Source: Propionivibrio dicarboxylicus (GTDB lineage: Bacteria > Pseudomonadota > Gammaproteobacteria > Burkholderiales > Rhodocyclaceae). From it: DNA of 64,000 nucleotides. Position 1 is the stretch's first letter; each line of letters starts with the position of its first letter. The notes beneath the pieces are model-generated. The model saw nothing but the letters and a program-made list of their open reading frames with translations, was not told the DNA's origin and did no database searches. Both the position numbers and the translations under genes were made by a program. Shown piece after piece: positions 32,465 to 63,254 of this stretch. The stretch is from positions 310,001 to 374,000 of the forward strand of contig NZ_FNCY01000001.1 of the NCBI RefSeq assembly GCF_900099695.1, given 5' to 3'.

Positions 32465-33421
32465 ATGCGCTTAGCCTTTATTGTCGACCCGCTCGATTCG
32501 CTCAAGGTCACCAAGGATTCCAGCATCGCCATGATGCGCGCCGCGCAGGCTGCCGGCCACGCGGTCTGGGCCATCCAGCAGTCGGCGATCCACTGGTCGC
32601 CGTTGCACGGCGTTTGCGCCGAAGCGGTGCATCTCGAAATGCTGTACGACGATGCGCGCTGGTGCGTCGAACTCGTCCGTCATGTCGTCCCGCTGCGCGA
32701 CTTCACCGCCGTCCTGATGCGCAAGGACCCGCCCTTCGACATCGAGTACATCACCACCTGCTGGCTGCTCGAACGCGCCGAAGCGGAAGGCGCGCGCATC
32801 TTCAACCGCCCGGCGGCGCTGCGCGATCACTCGGAAAAGCTGGCCATCCTCGAATTTCCGCAATTCATCGTCCCGACCGAGGTCGCGCGCGACGAAACCT
32901 TGCTGCACACCTTCATCGACATGCAGCACGACTGCATTCTCAAGCCGCTCGACGGTATGGGCGGCAGCCAGGTCTTCCGTGTCCGCGCCGACGATCCCAA
33001 CCGTAACGTCATCGTCGAGACACTGACGGCGGGCGGCCAGCGCACGATCATGGCGCAGCGTTACATCCCTGAGATCAGCCAGGGCGACAAGCGCATCCTG
33101 ATCATCGACGGCGAGGTCGCCCCCTACTGCCTGGCGCGCATTCCCAAAGCCGGCGAAACGCGCGGCAACCTGGCCGCCGGCGGACGCGGCGAGGCACGCG
33201 AACTGACGCCGCGCGACCGCGAGATCGCCGGCGCGCTGGCGCCGGTACTCGCCGCCCGCGGCCTGCTGATCGTCGGCATCGACGTCATCGGCGACTGGCT
33301 GACCGAAATCAACGTCACCAGCCCGACCTGCATGGTCGAAATCGCCGACCAGACCGGCTTCGACACGGCCGGTCTCGTCATCGCCGCTGTGGAAAAGGCA
33401 TGTATCGCCTCGGCCGCCTGA
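32465..33421 (+). CDS. gshB: Glutathione synthetase
   Basis: ATP-grasp ligase adding glycine to gamma-glutamylcysteine. 318 residues (E. coli 316), beginning MRLAFIVDPLDSLKVTKDSSIAMM. Conserved blocks are LLRKDPPFDIEYI-like MRKDPPFDIEYI, ILKPLDGMGGSQVF, and the C-terminal GIDVIGDWLTEINVTSPTC. A longer in-frame extension into gshA is rejected because the N-terminus shown is the family start. Its 3' end overlaps apbE by 22 bp. Confidence 0.97.
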   Translation: MRLAFIVDPLDSLKVTKDSSIAMMRAAQAAGHAVWAIQQSAIHWSPLHGVCAEAVHLEMLYDDARWCVELVRHVVPLRDFTAVLMRKDPPFDIEYITTCWLLERAEAEGARIFNRPAALRDHSEKLAILEFPQFIVPTEVARDETLLHTFIDMQHDCILKPLDGMGGSQVFRVRADDPNRNVIVETLTAGGQRTIMAQRYIPEISQGDKRILIIDGEVAPYCLARIPKAGETRGNLAAGGRGEARELTPRDREIAGALAPVLAARGLLIVGIDVIGDWLTEINVTSPTCMVEIADQTGFDTAGLVIAAVEKACIASAA

Positions 33422-34476
33422 TCCTCGTTCTCCTGTTCGCCGGCCTCAGCGCCTGCGGCCGGCCCGCCCTGCACCAGCAGGAATCCTTCGTTTTCGGTAC
33501 GCGCGTCGAGGTGCTCGTCGCCGATACCGACGAGACCACGGCGCGGCGGGCCGCCGACGCCGTGCTGCGCGAGTTCGACCGGCTGCACCGGACCTATCAC
33601 GCTTGGCTGCCGTCCGAACTCAGCGCGCTCAACACCGCCATCGCCGCCGGAAAACCCATCGAGGTCTCCGACGAAATGGCGGCCATCCTCAAGGATGCCC
33701 AGCGCATTTCAGCGCTGGGCAACGGCCTGTTCGATCCTGGCATCGGCCGCCTGATCGGCCTCTGGGGATTCCAGTCCGACGACTTCAAGGCCGCCCTCCC
33801 CGATCCCCGTGCGCTTGCCGCCTGGCGCAAGCAGCGTCCGGGCATCGCCGACCTGCGCATCGAGAACCGGCGCGTCAGCAGCCGCAACCGCGGCGTCGCG
33901 CTCGACCTGGGCGGTTATCTCAAGGGCTACGCGCTAGACCGGGCCAGCGCCATCCTGCGCGAAAACGGCGTCGGCAACGCCCTCGTCAACATCGGCGGCA
34001 ACGTCATGGCGCTGGGTACGAAGCACGGCGACGCCTGGCGCATCGGCATCCAGCATCCGCGCCAGCCCGGCCCGCTGGCCGTGCTCTCGCTCAAGGACGG
34101 CGAAGCGATCGGCACCTCGGGCGACTATCAGCGCTACTTCGAACTCGACGGCAAGCGTTACTGCCACCTGCTTGACCCGCGTAGCGGCGCACCGGTGACG
34201 CACACCCAGTCGCTCAGCGTCCTGATCACGCCACGACCCGCCGCCGGCACGCTCTCCGACGCGGCCTCCAAGCCGCTGTTCATCGCCGGTTCGGAATGGC
34301 CCGAGATGGCAAGGGCGCTCGGCATCACCCACGTTCTCCGGGTCGACGCCAGCGGCCGCATCGAAGCCAGCGCCGCCTTCCGGCAACGGCTCGAAAGCGG
34401 CAGCCTCGCCGGCGCCGACCTCACTGTCATCAGCATCGATGCCGCCGCACCTGCCGGAAATCGCGGAATACCTTAG
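33400..34476 (+). CDS. apbE: FAD:protein FMN transferase (ApbE), lipoprotein
   Basis: Attaches FMN covalently to threonine in periplasmic or membrane flavoproteins such as RnfG or NqrC. 358 residues. The N-terminus is a lipoprotein signal with lipobox LSAC (Cys about 19). The core includes ALDLGGYLKGYALDRA, NALVNIGGNVMALG and AIGTSGDYQRYF, with C-terminal THTQSLSVLI. The start lies inside gshB (22-bp overlap). No flavoprotein target is encoded in this window. Confidence 0.92.
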   Translation: MYRLGRLILVLLFAGLSACGRPALHQQESFVFGTRVEVLVADTDETTARRAADAVLREFDRLHRTYHAWLPSELSALNTAIAAGKPIEVSDEMAAILKDAQRISALGNGLFDPGIGRLIGLWGFQSDDFKAALPDPRALAAWRKQRPGIADLRIENRRVSSRNRGVALDLGGYLKGYALDRASAILRENGVGNALVNIGGNVMALGTKHGDAWRIGIQHPRQPGPLAVLSLKDGEAIGTSGDYQRYFELDGKRYCHLLDPRSGAPVTHTQSLSVLITPRPAAGTLSDAASKPLFIAGSEWPEMARALGITHVLRVDASGRIEASAAFRQRLESGSLAGADLTVISIDAAAPAGNRGIP

Positions 34477-56521: not shown

Positions 56522-56554
56522 GAAAAGAAACGGCGATGCCCGGAGGCATCGCCG
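56522..56554 (-). terminator. Rho-independent terminator of the decaheme/porin operon
   Basis: Read on the minus strand, a perfect 10-bp stem CGGCGATGCC/GGCATCGCCG with loop TCCG is followed by TTTCTTTTCC. It is 27 bp past the MtrB-type stop and before hypF, so the conduit operon and hypF are separate units. Confidence 0.88.
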
Positions 56555-56580
56555 TGAAAGGACTGTGCTGCGTTCCTGGC

Positions 56581-58578
56581 TTACTGGAAGCGATAGATGT
56601 AGCGCGCACCGACGTAGTTGGAGATCTGCTTGGGCATGGTGGATACCATGGTGCCATCATTCGGCGACGTTCCATAAACAAACGCACTGCCGTTCGCAAA
56701 CATCCATGTCCAGTCGTTTGTCTTCCAGCGCTCATGGATGAAGTCAAAGCGCACTTCCGACTGCTTGTCGAGCGTATATTGAGAGAAGATCTTGGCACGG
56801 AAAAGGATATTAGTGATCGGTTCCAGCGTTGACGGCTGCGTGGCCGCTTGCTGATAGGTGCTGGTACCGCGTGTCCATACGACATCGCTACCGAATTTCA
56901 GGCGCTCGCTGGCATTGGCGCGCGTCCCGAAACCGAAGGAGTGGTCAACCTCCATAAGACTGTCGGACATTCCGAAATTGAGCTGATTCGCGTGGCTGCG
57001 ATCGTAGGCATACCAGCTATTCAGGCTCCAGTTTTCGCTCATCGCGTAATTGGCATCGAGTCCATAGTGCAAGGCACTGCCGTCGCGAACGCCATAGATA
57101 CGGTCGAACCCGTAATTGTCCTTCGCCGCTTCAAGCGTCATCTGCAGCGTCAGAGCATCCGCCGGCGTCCAGTCGGCCGTCATCCGAATCTTGTTGCGCG
57201 TCCGGTTGGCAATGTTGAGCGGGTTGATCTGGTTGCTATACACCGTTGCCAGCGCGGTTGAAGTCTGCCCGTAGGAAGACCCCGCCCGAGTGCTGTAAAG
57301 GTAAGCGATGGCGCCATTGACCGTTTCCGACATCGCGCGACGTAGCTGCATCCGGTACGTCGTCTCGTCGACCTTGTAACGATAAGGCACCGCCCGTTGC
57401 GCATCGAATCCGGTCGGAATGCCACGATCCTGGCGACTGAAATCCACACCGCCCGTCAGACTGTATCCCTTAGGCAAACGATACGTGCCTTCAAACTTTC
57501 CGGTTGTCGTCTTATACGACCACGGCATATAGTTCGTCGGCGTCGAACTCAACAGTGAAATCGGGGTAGCGTCATCAACGTTGTGATAGCGCAGATTCGT
57601 CATCACCGAAAAGTCCTTGGTCAGCCGCGACGTCAGGCCAGCCTGAAGCAGTGTCGTATTGACCGCACCATTCAGACTTTGCGGCGAACTCGCCCACCCC
57701 TGGTTAGCCAGTCCCTGATTCTGGGTAGCATGTGTGTAGGCTGCCTTGAACGTCCCGCGCGTGGACGACGTAAAGTTGTAGCCGCCATGCACAAAGGCCT
57801 GGTGCGCCTGATTATCAAGCGGCAGCGACAGGAAAACGGGGGTCGTGGAAGCCGGATACACGGTCACGGAGCTGGTGCCCATGTTGTTCCCGTACCAGCT
57901 GCCGTAGTAACCGCCCGACAACTGCAATTTCTTCGTCGTGTAGTTGAGCGCAGTTTCAAGCTGACGCGTCGTGCTATTGATCGGTTCGACGGCAAACAGC
58001 GGGGTGCTGCCAGCCCCCCACGCGCGAGTGCCGGTCTTGTCCTCGTTCTTGAAACTGACGACGAGATCAAACTCAGAGTTGAACCGCTTGGTGAAACCGA
58101 GACCATACAGATCGCGCTTCGTGCCCAGCGAGATAACACCGTTCGTCCCGACAGTCGATGGAATCGTCTCCGTGGTCGTCCCAATCCCCTGGAGACGCGT
58201 CGAGAAGGTATTCGGATTAACCGAAGGCGTTCGCGAATACTCGAACGTCACCCCCATGTCGCCCTGGCGCAGGTACTCCGCCTTGACTTCACGCGACTCC
58301 AACCCGAGGTTGCTGGCATTGAGTTTCAGCCAAGTCCCGGTTTCCTCGTCGCGCTTGTTGATGTCGGCGTCCATCAGCCCGACAGCGCCCTTCTCCCGCA
58401 TGCCATCGTAGATGCCCTGCTGGTGACGGTCGCCCGACCAGTTGCCGACGCCAACCGAAACGGAGCTATCGGGCTTGGTCAGCGCATCGACATTGACATC
58501 CGCCGCCAGTGCCACCCCATACGCCGAGCCAAGGCAGATCGAGAGCGCGGAAAGCTTGAATTTCTGTACTGTTTTCAT
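56581..58578 (-). CDS. MtrB/PioB-family outer-membrane beta-barrel
   Basis: Predicted outer-membrane porin that sheathes a multiheme cytochrome and carries electrons across the outer membrane. 665 residues: signal peptide MKTVQKFKLSALSICLGSAYGVALAA, then alternating polar/aromatic strands through to YVGARYIYRFQ. Segments such as NASNLGLESREVKAEYLRQGDMGVTFEY and the many paired TGGVDFSRQDRG-like strands fit MtrB/PioB proteins. The mature chain contains no cysteine, so the N-terminal CXXC of Shewanella MtrB is absent. Located 17 bp after the decaheme cytochrome gene. Confidence 0.88.
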   Translation of the reverse strand: MKTVQKFKLSALSICLGSAYGVALAADVNVDALTKPDSSVSVGVGNWSGDRHQQGIYDGMREKGAVGLMDADINKRDEETGTWLKLNASNLGLESREVKAEYLRQGDMGVTFEYSRTPSVNPNTFSTRLQGIGTTTETIPSTVGTNGVISLGTKRDLYGLGFTKRFNSEFDLVVSFKNEDKTGTRAWGAGSTPLFAVEPINSTTRQLETALNYTTKKLQLSGGYYGSWYGNNMGTSSVTVYPASTTPVFLSLPLDNQAHQAFVHGGYNFTSSTRGTFKAAYTHATQNQGLANQGWASSPQSLNGAVNTTLLQAGLTSRLTKDFSVMTNLRYHNVDDATPISLLSSTPTNYMPWSYKTTTGKFEGTYRLPKGYSLTGGVDFSRQDRGIPTGFDAQRAVPYRYKVDETTYRMQLRRAMSETVNGAIAYLYSTRAGSSYGQTSTALATVYSNQINPLNIANRTRNKIRMTADWTPADALTLQMTLEAAKDNYGFDRIYGVRDGSALHYGLDANYAMSENWSLNSWYAYDRSHANQLNFGMSDSLMEVDHSFGFGTRANASERLKFGSDVVWTRGTSTYQQAATQPSTLEPITNILFRAKIFSQYTLDKQSEVRFDFIHERWKTNDWTWMFANGSAFVYGTSPNDGTMVSTMPKQISNYVGARYIYRFQ

Positions 58579-58595
58579 GAGTCGGCGCTCCTCGA

Positions 58596-59564
58596 TCAAC
58601 GACGGAAGTCCCGGGCCTGCACGTTATTGAGCGTGCTGTTTCCGCCATGGATATTGGTATGACAATTCAGGCAGCCACGGGCGACTGTCCCAACCGACGA
58701 GGTACCCGTCGTACGCCCTGCCGGCAAAGCAAATACCTGCCCCGGGTGCCCGCTCTGGCTATGGCACTCCTGGCAAAGGAACGGCGCTCGCGACTTGAGC
58801 ATCCCCGAGATCGAAGTACCATGCGGCTGGTGGCAGATGCCGCAGTCTTCGGTCACCGGTTGGTGGTTATGCACGAAGGGACCGCGCTTCTCCATGTGGC
58901 AGGTGTAGCAGGTGTCGTTGGTGCTGTCCTTGACGAGCTGCTTCGGGGTGTCGCTGTGTACGTTGTGGCACGAGGCGCAGTTCATCTTGCCTTCGATGAT
59001 CGGGTGGTGCGAGGGCTTGGTGACCTGCGTGCGCTGCTCCTTGTGGCACGTCGAGCACACCTCGATCTGGGTGAACTTGCCCATCACCTTGTCGTTCTTG
59101 GCATGCACCTGGTGGCAAGAGGTACAGGCGACGTCGTTGAGGCCATGCTTGCTCCCCTGCCATCCGATCCGCTTGCTTCCTTCGTGACAAGTGAGGCAAA
59201 CCCCGTTCTTGGTCGTCGCGTCGGTCTTGCTCTTCTTGTCGAAGGTCACATCGGTCAATGGCGGCGTGCCGCTGCCGCGATGCTTGACGTGCTTGTCGCT
59301 ATCGCCGTGGCAATCGGTACAGGTCGGCGTCCGACCGTCGGCGCGGGTACCGTGCTTGGTCTTGCCGATCGAAAGCACCGAGGGGTGCAGGTCGATCATG
59401 TTCGGGCCGGCATCATCCGACTCGTCGTGGCAACCGGTGCAGCGGGCATCCCCCTTGAGCACCAGATCGTTGGCCGGATCGGCCGCAAACGCCGGTGCGG
59501 AGAGACTGGCAGCAGCAACACCCAGCGCCACCATCAGCCCCAAAAACAACTTCGGTATTCCCAT
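58596..59564 (-). CDS. DmsE/MtrA-family periplasmic decaheme c-type cytochrome
   Basis: A 322-residue secreted cytochrome with a signal peptide (MGIPKLFLGLMVALGVAAASLSAPAFA) and exactly ten CXXCH heme sites: CTGCH, CTDCH, CLTCH, CTSCH, CSTCH, CASCH, CYTCH, CGICH, CQECH and CLNCH. Length and heme number match MtrA, DmsE, MtoA and PioA. It should fill the adjacent barrel and pass electrons between periplasm and cell surface. The ATG at 59564 is fixed by an AGGAGG box 5 bp upstream; an in-frame start 36 bp earlier is less likely. Confidence 0.93.
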   Translation of the reverse strand: MGIPKLFLGLMVALGVAAASLSAPAFAADPANDLVLKGDARCTGCHDESDDAGPNMIDLHPSVLSIGKTKHGTRADGRTPTCTDCHGDSDKHVKHRGSGTPPLTDVTFDKKSKTDATTKNGVCLTCHEGSKRIGWQGSKHGLNDVACTSCHQVHAKNDKVMGKFTQIEVCSTCHKEQRTQVTKPSHHPIIEGKMNCASCHNVHSDTPKQLVKDSTNDTCYTCHMEKRGPFVHNHQPVTEDCGICHQPHGTSISGMLKSRAPFLCQECHSQSGHPGQVFALPAGRTTGTSSVGTVARGCLNCHTNIHGGNSTLNNVQARDFRR

Positions 59565-59600
59565 AACGCCTCCTTGAGCATCGACCGCAACCTGCTTCAA

Positions 59601-59737
59601 GATGCAGTCCGGCCGATCTTTCTTCTAATGCAAAGATGTCAAGGAGTGTAAATAAAGGTTAATGACCACAATATCGGCATTGGATTAAAAGGGCTGTAGG
59701 AAAATTCCTACCCTTCTCGGGAATGCCAACCGTCGGA
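59601..59737. promoter_or_regulatory. Probable promoter region of the decaheme/porin operon
   Basis: The 173-bp gap (59565-59737) between the response-regulator stop and the cytochrome start is A+T-richer than its surroundings. Minus-strand TTGACA at 59642-59637 resembles a -35 box, but no convincing -10 follows at normal spacing. That would fit an activated promoter, for instance by the adjacent LuxR-type regulator. No -24/-12 sigma54 pattern was seen. Confidence 0.4.
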
Positions 59738-60394
59738 TCAGTATTGCCCCGGATCGACCAAGCCTCTGGAAATCGCGTAGCGCACCAGTTCGGCGTTGTT
59801 GGTCAGGCCCATTTTCTGAAGGATATGCGTCTTGTGGGTACTGATCGTCTTGACGCTCAGCGACAGTTCGAGGGCGATCTCGCTCAATCCCCGGCCTTGC
59901 ACGAGTTTATCGAAAATCTGGTATTCGCGGTCTGACAACAATTGATGCGGCGCCACGTCACACGCCGACTGACCACTGCGGATCATCAACTCGGCCACCT
60001 TGTCGCTGACGAACACGCCGCCGTTGGCAACCTTACGGATCGCGCCAACCAGCAGGTCGGCATCGCTTTCCTTGGTGACATAGCCCTGGGCGCCGGCCTT
60101 CAGCGCCCGGACGGCGTACTGCTCCTCGTGATGCATGCTGAGGACCAGGATCGGCACAGCGTGACGCTCGTCGCGGATCATCCGGATCAGTTCTATCCCG
60201 CCGCGCCCCGGCATCGAAATATCGAGGACGAGCACATGCCAGACGCCCTCGCGGATACGCTGCATCACCTCGATGCCGTTGGCCGCCTCGCCGGCGACCT
60301 CGAGGTCCTCGGTATCGCTGAGGATTTGCCGCACACCGTCGCGGATGATGGCGTGATCGTCCGCCAACAGCACTCTACGCTTTTCCATCGTCAT
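59738..60394 (-). CDS. NarL/FixJ-family (LuxR-type) response regulator
   Basis: A 218-residue DNA-binding response regulator. Receiver acidic pocket Asp12-Asp13, phospho-acceptor Asp58 (VLVLDISMPGRGG) and conserved Lys in YVTKES. The C-terminal LuxR HTH is at about 150-210 (LSDREYQIFDKLVQGRGLSEIALELSLSVKTISTHKTHILQKM). Its start overlaps the sensor kinase stop by 20 bp. It lies immediately upstream of the decaheme operon on the same strand, so that operon is the obvious candidate target. Confidence 0.93.
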   Translation of the reverse strand: MTMEKRRVLLADDHAIIRDGVRQILSDTEDLEVAGEAANGIEVMQRIREGVWHVLVLDISMPGRGGIELIRMIRDERHAVPILVLSMHHEEQYAVRALKAGAQGYVTKESDADLLVGAIRKVANGGVFVSDKVAELMIRSGQSACDVAPHQLLSDREYQIFDKLVQGRGLSEIALELSLSVKTISTHKTHILQKMGLTNNAELVRYAISRGLVDPGQY

Positions 60395-62441
60395 CCTTTG
60401 GCTGCCCGTTGCCCGGAATCGTCACGCTGATCCGCGTGCCACGTTCTGGCGAGCTTTCGACTTCCAGATGCCCGCCCAGCATTTGCGCGCGTTCGCGCAT
60501 GCCGACGAGGCCCATGTTGCCGCAACATTGCCCGTTATCGTATACAAATCCCTGCCCGTCGTCCTCGACACAAAGGTTCCACTTGCCCCCGTCATGACCA
60601 AGGCGAACCGTCAGACGCGAGGCCTGAGCATGGCGCGCCACGTTCGTCATCGATTCCTGCAGGATGCGGAAAAGCGCCGTCGCCACTGCCGAATCACACT
60701 CGACATCGCTGTCGGGTAAATGTCGGTCGATCTCAATCCCCGTGCGCTCGGAAAACTGATCGATGTACCAATGCGCGGCATCGACCAAACCCAGATCGTC
60801 GAGCACGAGGGGCCGCAGCTCCGAAGAAATCCGGCGCACCGATGCGATCGTCTGGTCGATCTGCTCCTTGATGGCGACGACCCGCTCGGAGAGTAGCCGC
60901 TGCTCCGGAATCAGGCGCCCGCCCAACCAGGATATTTCGAGCCGGATGCCGGTCAGCAACTGGCCCAGCTCGTCATGCAGTTCCCGTGCAATGCGTGAGC
61001 GCTCGTCCTCACGCACGCGCTGCAGCGAAGCCGACAACTCCTGTAACTGACGGTGTGAATCGCGCAACTGCTGATCGGCCCGGCGTCGTTCGGTGGCATC
61101 GCGAAATACCGCGGTCAGCAAACTTTCGCCACGAAACTGGGCCGCGGACAAACTCAACTCGACAAACAGCGTCCGCCCGTCACGGCGAAGATCGAGCGCT
61201 TCGATGCCCTCGCCACCGGCCTCCGGCCGACTCCGGTCCATGCTGCGGGCCAGGCGATCGAGTTGCCGCGCCGGGATCTTGCCATCGAGCAAGGCGACCA
61301 GACGCTGGCCCACCGCGTGCCCGGCCGAAATGCCGAAGAGTTCGGCCGCCGCCGTATTGGCCATCAGCACCCGCCCCTGCGCATCGAGCGTGACGATGGC
61401 GTCGCGTGCCGATTCGATCATGTGCCGCAATTGCTCGGCGCTTTCGAGCAAGGCCAATTCGAGCAGTTCCTTGCGCGCCAGATTCCGGGCAAAAACCCAG
61501 GTCGTGAAGACGACGAAAACGATCACCATCACGATCCCGAATGCGATCGGGCGCGCCACATCCCACCAGGAAGCCAGCGCCACCGCTTCATCAGCCACCA
61601 CGCCAACGAAGAACGGGTAGTTCGCCACCGCGCGGTAGGCGACGAACTGTCGCGCGCCATCGGCATCGAGGCGGGTTTCCATCGCGCTCTTGCCGGGTGA
61701 CCCGACGAGGCCCGCCAGGATGCTCCGGTTGCCGAACAGCGAGCCCATCGCCTCGTCGCCACGGAACTGGCCCGCCGCCAGTTCGCCGTGCTGGTTCAGC
61801 AACACGATCTGGCTGACCGTATCCAGTCCGATACTGCCGTAGAGCGAATCGAAATAGTCGATGTTCACCGCCGACACCAGGACGCCGCGGAAGCGCCCGG
61901 CACCATCGCGGAGCGCCACGCCGACGTAGTAGGTCCATTGCCCATCGACACGCGCCTTCTCGGGACGGCTGATGAAAATCTCGTCAGGTCCGCCGTCGGC
62001 GAAATAGCGATAGAAAACACGATCCTGCATGCGCAGCTGCCGGATGAAATCGTCGCGCGACGAATTCACGCCGAAGCCGTCGCGGTCGACCAGGAAAATC
62101 GACTTGACCTGTGGCAAACCGGCACTGCGCACCTTGAGCAGCAAGCTGACCGGCAGGCTGTTGAGCGACAGGCGCTGGCCGTAGACGTCGTCCATCCGAT
62201 CGCGCACGCCGCGCATCATCAGGACGATGCCATCGAAAGCGCGCGTCGTCTGCTCGGACAGCAGTCGCGTCAGGCCGAGCGACTGCTGCTGCGCATGTAC
62301 CAGTTCCTTGTGGCGCAGGTCGAAGAGGATCATGGCGGCCGAAATTGCCAGCACAGCGATCATGCCCGACGACAGCAGAACGACCGCGCGTACCGAGGAA
62401 ATGCGTCGCCAAGCCGGCGTCTGACGATGGATGGATATCAC
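60375..62441 (-). CDS. Membrane sensor histidine kinase with Cache and PAS domains (NarX-like transmitter)
   Basis: A 688-residue kinase. The first TM (about 18-43) leads to a large periplasmic double-Cache-like sensor (about 45-295, with IFLVDRDGFGVNSS and VAYRAVANYPFFVGVVA). A second TM (about 300-325) is followed by PAS (about 340-460) and a HisKA_3 transmitter with His489 in IARELHDELGQLL. The HATPase includes DDGQGF and GLVGMRERAQMLGG. The GTG at 62441 is preceded by GAGGGG. A Cache domain suggests a small extracellular ligand such as an organic acid; the ligand is unknown. Confidence 0.92.
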   Translation of the reverse strand: MISIHRQTPAWRRISSVRAVVLLSSGMIAVLAISAAMILFDLRHKELVHAQQQSLGLTRLLSEQTTRAFDGIVLMMRGVRDRMDDVYGQRLSLNSLPVSLLLKVRSAGLPQVKSIFLVDRDGFGVNSSRDDFIRQLRMQDRVFYRYFADGGPDEIFISRPEKARVDGQWTYYVGVALRDGAGRFRGVLVSAVNIDYFDSLYGSIGLDTVSQIVLLNQHGELAAGQFRGDEAMGSLFGNRSILAGLVGSPGKSAMETRLDADGARQFVAYRAVANYPFFVGVVADEAVALASWWDVARPIAFGIVMVIVFVVFTTWVFARNLARKELLELALLESAEQLRHMIESARDAIVTLDAQGRVLMANTAAAELFGISAGHAVGQRLVALLDGKIPARQLDRLARSMDRSRPEAGGEGIEALDLRRDGRTLFVELSLSAAQFRGESLLTAVFRDATERRRADQQLRDSHRQLQELSASLQRVREDERSRIARELHDELGQLLTGIRLEISWLGGRLIPEQRLLSERVVAIKEQIDQTIASVRRISSELRPLVLDDLGLVDAAHWYIDQFSERTGIEIDRHLPDSDVECDSAVATALFRILQESMTNVARHAQASRLTVRLGHDGGKWNLCVEDDGQGFVYDNGQCCGNMGLVGMRERAQMLGGHLEVESSPERGTRISVTIPGNGQPKDDDGKA

Positions 62442-62633: not shown

Positions 62634-63254
62634 ATGCTCGTCGCCTCCCATCTCGAGTGCGTTCGCGGAGAACGCAGTCTGTTCCGGAATCTCGCCTTTC
62701 GCCTCGACGAAGGCGAGCTGCTCTATTTGCAAGGCAGGAATGGTTCCGGCAAGACCAGCCTGCTGCGCATGCTGTGCGGACTCCTGCCGCCGGCTGCCGG
62801 CGAGATTCGCTGGAAAGGCGAGACGATCGGGCGACTCGGTGAGGATTACCGCCGCGAACTGTGCTTCCTCGGCCACCTCAACGCCATCAAGGAAGAATTG
62901 ACGCCGCTCGAAAACCTGCGCGCCTCGGCAAAACTCGCCGACACGCCACTCGACGAGGATCTCGCCCTCGAAGCGCTGGAAACCCTGGGCCTCGCCGGAC
63001 GCGCCGATCTGGCCTGCCGCTATCTGTCGCAAGGCCAGAAACGGCGGGTTGCGCTGGCGCGGCTGGTGCATGAACGCAAGTCGCTTTGGCTGCTCGACGA
63101 GCCCTTCGTCGCGCTCGACACCGCCGCTGTCGAGCTCGTCGCCGGCCTCATCGGTGCCCATCTGCAACGCGGCGGCCTGGCCGTGCTGACCACCCACCAG
63201 CCGGTCAACATTCCGGCCGGAACCGTCCGTCAACTGGTGCTTGGATCATGCTGA
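62634..63254 (+). CDS. ccmA: Heme exporter ATP-binding protein CcmA
   Basis: ATPase of the System I cytochrome c maturation machinery; powers release of heme-loaded CcmE. 206 residues. Walker A QGRNGSGKTSL near residue 36, signature LSQGQKRRVALARL near 128, Walker B LWLLDEPFVALD. The 3' end overlaps ccmB by 7 bp. Functionally fits the multiheme cytochrome encoded 3 kb away. Confidence 0.96.
   Translation: MLVASHLECVRGERSLFRNLAFRLDEGELLYLQGRNGSGKTSLLRMLCGLLPPAAGEIRWKGETIGRLGEDYRRELCFLGHLNAIKEELTPLENLRASAKLADTPLDEDLALEALETLGLAGRADLACRYLSQGQKRRVALARLVHERKSLWLLDEPFVALDTAAVELVAGLIGAHLQRGGLAVLTTHQPVNIPAGTVRQLVLGSC

Follow-up and report, generated by a model that had tools for sequence, protein, structure and literature searches.

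We report that four minus-strand genes at positions 56581-62441 of a 64,000-nucleotide stretch of the Propionivibrio dicarboxylicus genome (contig NZ_FNCY01000001.1, 310,001 to 374,000; the whole stretch is referred to as the window) probably encode, to judge from their sequences, an Mto/Mtr-type outer-membrane electron conduit under a dedicated two-component system. The genes specify, in order, a sensor kinase, a regulator, a decaheme cytochrome and an outer-membrane barrel, and a terminator-like hairpin follows. The adjacent two-component system very probably controls the conduit: a perfect palindrome between the regulator and decaheme genes, proposed here as the operator, accompanies the regulator gene across related conduit loci and stands in a fixed register with further promoter-like elements. 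The initial annotation, made from the letters of the window alone, had the same single-strand gene order and the same overlap between sensor and LuxR-type regulator, and both are borne out by the coordinates and Pfam domains below.

60375-62441, minus strand: sensor histidine kinase, with transmembrane helix, periplasmic dCache domain, second transmembrane helix, PAS, HisKA_3 and HATPase_c (Pfam dCache_1, AlphaFold model, Foldseek)
59738-60394, minus strand: LuxR/GerE-type response regulator, Response_reg plus GerE (Pfam; orthologues in family genomes), overlapping the sensor gene by 20 bp
59696-59711, no strand assigned: perfect 16-bp palindrome GTAGGAAAATTCCTAC, proposed operator of the regulator (site scans, locus comparison, tree pairs)
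59682-59689, minus strand: second conserved element TTTAATCC (fixed-register alignment, 39 distinct sites)
59671-59678, minus strand: third conserved element GCCGATAT (fixed-register alignment)
59645-59650, minus strand: proposed -10 hexamer TACACT (register positions A48 90%, A50 74%, T52 85%)
58596-59564, minus strand: decaheme c-type cytochrome of MtrA/MtoA type, with signal peptide (TIGR03508, ten CXXCH, 6r2q_A)
56581-58578, minus strand: MtrB/PioB-family outer-membrane barrel (TIGR03509, PF11854, structural model, 6r2q_B)
56530-56555, minus strand: terminator-like hairpin (hairpin scan of the region)

Identity of the decaheme-barrel pair

By homology and modelled fold, the pair is an Mto/Mtr-type outer-membrane electron conduit of the MtrAB/MtoAB/PioAB kind, in agreement with the initial annotation. 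The cytochrome contains ten CXXCH motifs, whereas 2000 composition shuffles averaged 0.08 and never exceeded 2. It scores 254.8 bits with TIGR03508 (the NCBIfam model named DmsE family; cut-off 192.2) and matches 6r2q_A, the MtrA chain of the Mtr complex, with E 1.8e-62 (the chain is named otherwise in the match table, apparently through a labelling slip). The barrel reaches 329.7 bits with TIGR03509 (cut-off 240.05) and 423 bits with PF11854, and its sequence matches MtrB (6r2q_B, E 9.8e-26). Its model, with a mean predicted local distance difference test (pLDDT) score of 74.7, has 26 strands of at least 8 residues, and a fold search with it returned 6r2q_B first (E 9.7e-32, TM-score 0.77) and a runner-up at 1.6e-9. 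Both marks of membership in this group, an MtrA-type decaheme and an adjoining MtrB/PioB barrel, are present. The assembly to which the window belongs (G000; 4,534,676 bases in 44 contigs, 98.6% complete) holds one decaheme above the TIGR03508 cut-off and one PF11854 barrel, and a plasmid search gave a single Photobacterium record.

The name of the NCBIfam model that fits the decaheme raises the alternative of a DmsEF-type conduit serving an extracellular enzyme resembling dimethyl sulfoxide reductase. We regard this as very unlikely, since the same model also covers Mto-type conduits among the relatives. The cluster contains no dmsAB-type molybdoenzyme genes, its neighbours being ccmA, the two-component genes and hypF, and none came to light next to the pair or among the genes listed for the relatives, which were screened solely for heme motifs and selected homologues.

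The ratio of nonsynonymous to synonymous substitution rates (dN/dS) between the window and G105, a genome of the same genus, is 0.088 for the barrel, 0.100 for the decaheme, 0.040 for the regulator and 0.088 for the sensor; the four genes have thus been kept under purifying selection. The barrel gene (56581-58578) also has a dS of 1.51 in this comparison, with neighbouring genes at 0.34-0.66, and recombination or pressure on surface loops may perhaps account for its unusual divergence.

A candidate operator that tracks the regulator

The palindrome GTAGGAAAATTCCTAC lies in the regulator-decaheme gap, and matches to it with at most 3 mismatches are expected 0.03 times in the window. Its core, TAGGA-N4-TCCTA, occurs once in the 4.53-Mb assembly of the window and once each in G105 and G171, both of the same genus, always in that gap. 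To place these sites in a wider context we compared the best 80 of 235 related loci from a scan of public genomes, together with L119 from G105 (81 loci in all; L denotes loci and G genomes). A barrel follows the decaheme in all 81. In the 74 loci with at least 2.5 kb of upstream sequence, 20 have a kinase and a regulator (regulator 55-95% identical), 19 of them upstream and one (L050) downstream. The initial annotation had not recognized a two-component system directly upstream of a minimal AB pair as standard; with 20 such loci, the arrangement is not unique.

The distribution of the core largely follows that of the regulator. In the 3 kb before the decaheme gene, 17 of the 20 loci with the regulator contain a perfect core, as do none of the 54 without it (Fisher 5e-14), and with one mismatch allowed the contrast becomes 19 of 20 against 0 of 54 (Fisher 9e-17), L045 being the exception. 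Because the loci are related, we also counted independent pairs on the decaheme tree, again allowing one mismatch: among 10 pairs, nine agree, none oppose and one is a tie. In 30 regulator loci that were read, the core stands within 350 bp behind the regulator in 26 (perfect in 23). L106 has a perfect core at a point where the contig start is too near to show a regulator. An operator at the conduit that tracks the regulator gene, as would be expected of a dedicated regulator, is therefore what the comparison recovers at the level of sequence.

Autoregulation through the same core was considered and rejected, as there is no site with at most 3 mismatches near the sensor gene; one match with 3 mismatches lies near the end of the barrel gene. 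As a separate observation, three loci (L045, L188 from G043, and L196 from G286) have a regulator that adjoins the decaheme and lack a TAGGA-N4-TCCTA core, and they possibly form a sub-branch with a shifted operator.

A composite promoter in fixed register

Of 48 loci examined, 44 have a site (39 distinct sequences). When these are aligned by their palindromes, two further elements and a -10-like hexamer appear in a fixed register. The hexamer is found 47-52 bases past the palindrome, and the intervening columns are mostly conserved at 40-60%. Counted from the -10 hexamer, the palindrome centre would fall at about -66 and the inner elements at about -43, an arrangement that would suit an activator also touching the -35 region. 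The inner elements are displaced outwards in L185, L197 and L199 and poorly kept in L107, L108, L112, L194 and L198.

On a composite score built on this register, 11 of the 12 conduit sites read reached 10-14 of 14, and the remaining one, which has a one-base shift, reached 7; other sites read scored 2-5, and 24,000 random positions scored at most 10. The site scan also detected a second conduit copy in Aromatoleum diolicum, the genome of L057. There, an mtoD-like/decaheme pair (L143:573-2086) lies behind a full composite promoter scoring 13 of 14, with no regulator gene in the preceding 570 bases. The initial annotation had inferred that the regulator controls the conduit, and the palindrome, the composite promoter, the locus contrast and the tree pairs now lend this comparative support.

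The sensor kinase and the wider regulator family

The first 335 residues of the sensor, modelled by AlphaFold with a pLDDT of 87.2, form a dCache domain between two membrane helices. The best solved match in a Foldseek search is the sensor domain of a histidine kinase (3lif). Most of the matches ranked below it are amino-acid chemoreceptors, and these, even with the dicarboxylate chemoreceptors also present there, are not enough to identify the ligand of the sensor. A thiol redox sensor was considered and rejected, because the sensor part of 21 kinases has no conserved cysteine. The initial annotation called the system NarXL-like, and this stands at the level of class, with a HisKA_3 kinase and a LuxR-type regulator; it does not extend to the NCBIfam equivalogs, whose cut-offs are not reached by either protein (NarL 129.3 bits, cut-off 250; NarX 88.3 bits, cut-off 578).

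In 297 family genomes, the set used for the decaheme search, 32 regulator orthologues score at least 256 bits, the next score being 244. In 25 of these 32, the contig also has a decaheme no more than about 7 kb away, and an orthologous regulator is found in 26 of the 78 family genomes with a decaheme above the cut-off compared with 6 of the 219 without one (Fisher 5.8e-12). The two-component trait requires at least 12 changes on the decaheme tree, which points to frequent gain and loss. The window groups on this tree with L119, L039, L076, L040 (a metagenome-assembled genome named Propionivibrio sp.) and L041, with an SH-aLRT support of 98, and 96 in a second tree.

Several observations weigh against assigning the operator and the regulator to the conduit. 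A reversed-pattern control gives 0-4 matches per genome (G000 1, G105 1, G171 0), so a single match to the core in a genome is near chance and the argument rests on its position. Among 21 core sites in 14 genomes, which were chosen for having the regulator and in which the positions of two sites were taken from contig coordinates, 14 are at the conduit and 7 are elsewhere. The two-component genes lie downstream instead of upstream in L050 and G106, four of the 30 regulator loci have no core site (G106, G043, G163 and G286), and L045 has a regulator with only a variant palindrome, TTAAGAAATTTCTTAA. The orthologue search scored ten candidates per genome, and seven of the 32 orthologues (G264, G004, G163, G033, G284, G258 and G181) have no decaheme on their contig.

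The palindrome might belong to another regulator, or the two-component genes might be mere neighbours that control something else. The core sites away from conduits would suit this alternative, as would two loci with other genes behind the regulator. In L173 (G264, of the same genus), an EB_dh (PF09459) heme protein is encoded behind an orthologous kinase and regulator and a site with one mismatch, and no conduit decaheme was found in that genome; in L189 (G163), the orthologous regulator is directly followed on the same strand by a ccmA-like gene (judged by eye). We nevertheless consider the alternative improbable, given that conduit loci without the regulator lack the site and that the independent pairs are unanimous apart from the tie. 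Moreover, in G264, G004 and G284, where a different gene follows the regulator, the site is still found behind the regulator, which is what an operator belonging to it would be predicted to show.

A further site bears on the reach of this family. In Dechloromonas hankyongensis, the genome of L053, a Sec-type nosZ (TIGR04246 627 bits, partial) stands behind a perfect TAGGA-N4-TCCTA core, which in turn follows a paralogous kinase and regulator (L155:1-3014). Together with the EB_dh site of G264, this indicates that the wider family of the regulator serves respiratory genes and that the branch studied here serves mostly the conduit. It may be that this core acts as an operator for a larger group of respiratory two-component systems. 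Because ccmA adjoins the two-component genes both here (62634-63254) and in G163, heme maturation and the regulator may also be linked.

An inner-membrane module encoded elsewhere

The initial annotation described the conduit as self-contained, a view that is not borne out. The four closest relatives outside G105 (L039, L040, L041 and L076) have a heptaheme gene adjoining the barrel, which the window and L119 lack; the genome of the window has the module elsewhere. In G105, genes for a heptaheme, a cytochrome b and an MtoD-like protein are consecutive at C1:214262-212295. The same genes in G000 sit at contig ends, the heptaheme on contig C31 and the cytochrome b and MtoD-like genes on C28, with neighbours as in G105 (by eye). 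The unlinked heptahemes nest with the linked ones in the tree, as sister to that of L041 (95/98), and the MtoD-like protein that G000 encodes away from the conduit is 57% identical to a protein of L042. The module has no core operator, since the single core of the genome is at the conduit. It tells against the proposed pairing of conduit and module that it rests on homology and on synteny in the sister locus, and that the module is split by contig ends in G000.

G000 has a second heptaheme at the end of C30, preceded by a porin, a tetraheme cytochrome and a flavocytochrome-like gene, and the heptaheme module may therefore serve more than one pathway. In this locus (L122, G000:C30:1-5648), the flavocytochrome-like flavin adenine dinucleotide (FAD) protein scores 353 bits with a vinyl phenol reductase model (cut-off 600) and the heptaheme is cut by the contig end; the genes are perhaps a periplasmic reductase operon.

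The arrangement in the closest relatives also admits the reading that the window holds a decaying remnant of a fuller operon, which lost its adjacent inner-membrane genes. This seems most unlikely, as the frames are intact, the operator is perfect, the dN/dS values are low, and the missing inner-membrane parts persist elsewhere in both G000 and G105.

Other candidate partners were sought. The NapC/NirT protein of the genome, its single PF03264 match, was rejected as the CymA of this pathway; it lies within an apparent nap operon (by eye, L168). An MtoC query matched in none of 3 genomes, in a search without a positive control. Adjacent mtoC and mtoD genes, as in an mtoABCD operon, are likewise absent: the gap between barrel and hypF is 172 bp, and the regulator-decaheme gap contains no gene.

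Direction of electron flow

In one relative, the gene behind a paralogous kinase-regulator pair and the same core is nosZ, which encodes a terminal reductase, and for this reason we lean slightly towards electrons being exported to an external acceptor. It is quite possible that the conduit instead takes up electrons from Fe(II), solid minerals or a cathode, as MtoAB and PioAB do. Among the 81 related loci, at least 27 have an MtoC-like (CbcL-type) gene and at least 61 an MtoD-like monoheme gene, both being parts of the mtoABCD operon of Fe(II) oxidizers (PMC5566968, PMC6295460; here and below, papers are cited from the parts available to us). At least 10 loci have a heptaheme and at least 1 an MtrC-like gene; all four counts are lower bounds because several loci are cut by contig ends. 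An MtrC/OmcA-family surface cytochrome (TIGR03507) was found in none of three genomes (G000, G105 and G171), in a search in which no control genome exceeded the cut-off either, and to that extent the absence reported in the initial annotation holds. The barrel of the window has no CXXC, and 4 of 80 barrels have one in their first 110 residues, which does not decide direction. Against uptake stand the nosZ paralogue and the statement, in the portion of PMC6295460 covered, that no feature separates quinol-oxidizing from quinone-reducing members.

Gene calls and surroundings

The best start of the decaheme is the ATG at 59564, with AGGAGG at 59569-59574, and that of the barrel is the ATG at 58578 (665 aa). 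The hairpin at 56555-56530 has 11 pairs and a T-rich tail, and its stem is the longest among 12 such matches in the scanned region, where shuffles give 6.2; the closing terminator of the initial annotation is in this sense upheld. So is the divergence of ccm genes from the sensor, with ccmA on the plus strand at 62634-63254. After the barrel comes hypF (56408-54060, minus strand), which was absent from that annotation. Further away, the open reading frame at 33400-34476 resembles an ApbE-like FAD:protein FMN transferase by family score, at 122.6 bits and under the cut-off of 498.

Discussion

We propose that the periplasmic dCache domain of the kinase would sense a soluble signal and phosphorylate the LuxR-type regulator, which would then bind the palindrome at 59696-59711 and activate the decaheme-barrel operon from a promoter with TACACT (59645-59650) as its -10 element. 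Electrons would cross the outer membrane by way of the decaheme inside the barrel. At its periplasmic end, the decaheme may exchange electrons with an MtoD-like monoheme cytochrome and, through this protein, with the heptaheme/cytochrome-b quinol module encoded elsewhere in the genome.

The conduit itself is of a known kind; what is new is the regulatory unit, the operator with its promoter, and the splitting of the pathway in the genus. Operons of the mtoABCD type are reported from Dechloromonas aromatica and Gallionella ES-2, and mtoABD without the inner-membrane gene from Thiomonas (PMC5566968, PMC6295460). They share the decaheme and barrel, and the relatives of the window have MtoD-like and MtoC-like (CbcL-type) partners beside the pair. 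In the window, however, MtoC and MtoD genes are not adjacent and the MtoD-like and heptaheme/cytochrome-b genes at the other locus stand in; an adjacent two-component system is present here, whereas the available parts of those two papers do not mention a dedicated regulator.

MtrCAB of Shewanella and its betaproteobacterial relatives (PDB 6r2q) resembles the pair in decaheme and barrel sequence and in barrel fold, and also in the proximity of ccm genes, as six mtrCAB clusters are reported next to ccm operons (PMC8805035). It differs in that the genome of the window has no MtrC/OmcA match in the search described, which had no positive control. The pioABC operon of Rhodopseudomonas palustris TIE-1 is likewise a transcriptionally controlled decaheme-barrel conduit without MtrC, but it is activated by FixK, a global regulator of anoxia (PMC3050613), whereas here the two-component system lies next to the conduit and the perfect core occurs once in the genome; there is also no gene for a high-potential iron-sulfur protein (HiPIP) between barrel and hypF. 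NarXL shares a HisKA_3 kinase and a LuxR-type regulator with this system and differs in the dCache sensor here and in scores far under the NarX and NarL cut-offs. In the literature searched, with partial coverage (including PMC8805035, PMC6295460, PMC5566968, PMC3770913, PMC10734462, PMC7399161, PMC10654088, PMC4245776 and PMC3050613), we came across no two-component system described as dedicated to an Mto/Mtr-type conduit in these bacteria.

Our findings fit into a broader question of when and why cells build mto/pio-type conduits, which is largely open beyond the tie between pioABC and FixK (PMC3050613). Tentatively, the locus may represent a one-operon sensory circuit in Rhodocyclales and relatives, in which a conduit travels with its own ligand sensor and the single perfect operator of the regulator in this genome is at the conduit. 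If so, the wire would be deployed on one external small molecule, such as a shuttle, an organic acid or a by-product of mineral dissolution, and not under global control by oxygen or carbon. A sensor, regulator, operator and promoter that travel with the conduit provide a defined handle, and the ligand could be found with the isolated dCache domain. The 46-bp-spaced promoter could also serve to locate conduits and as a reporter of when they are expressed. A minimal AB pair need no longer be viewed as self-contained, since the genes for its inner-membrane half can be located in another part of the genome. With a sensor-regulator pair and its apparent landing site in hand, the decision of the cell to build an electron wire becomes directly testable.

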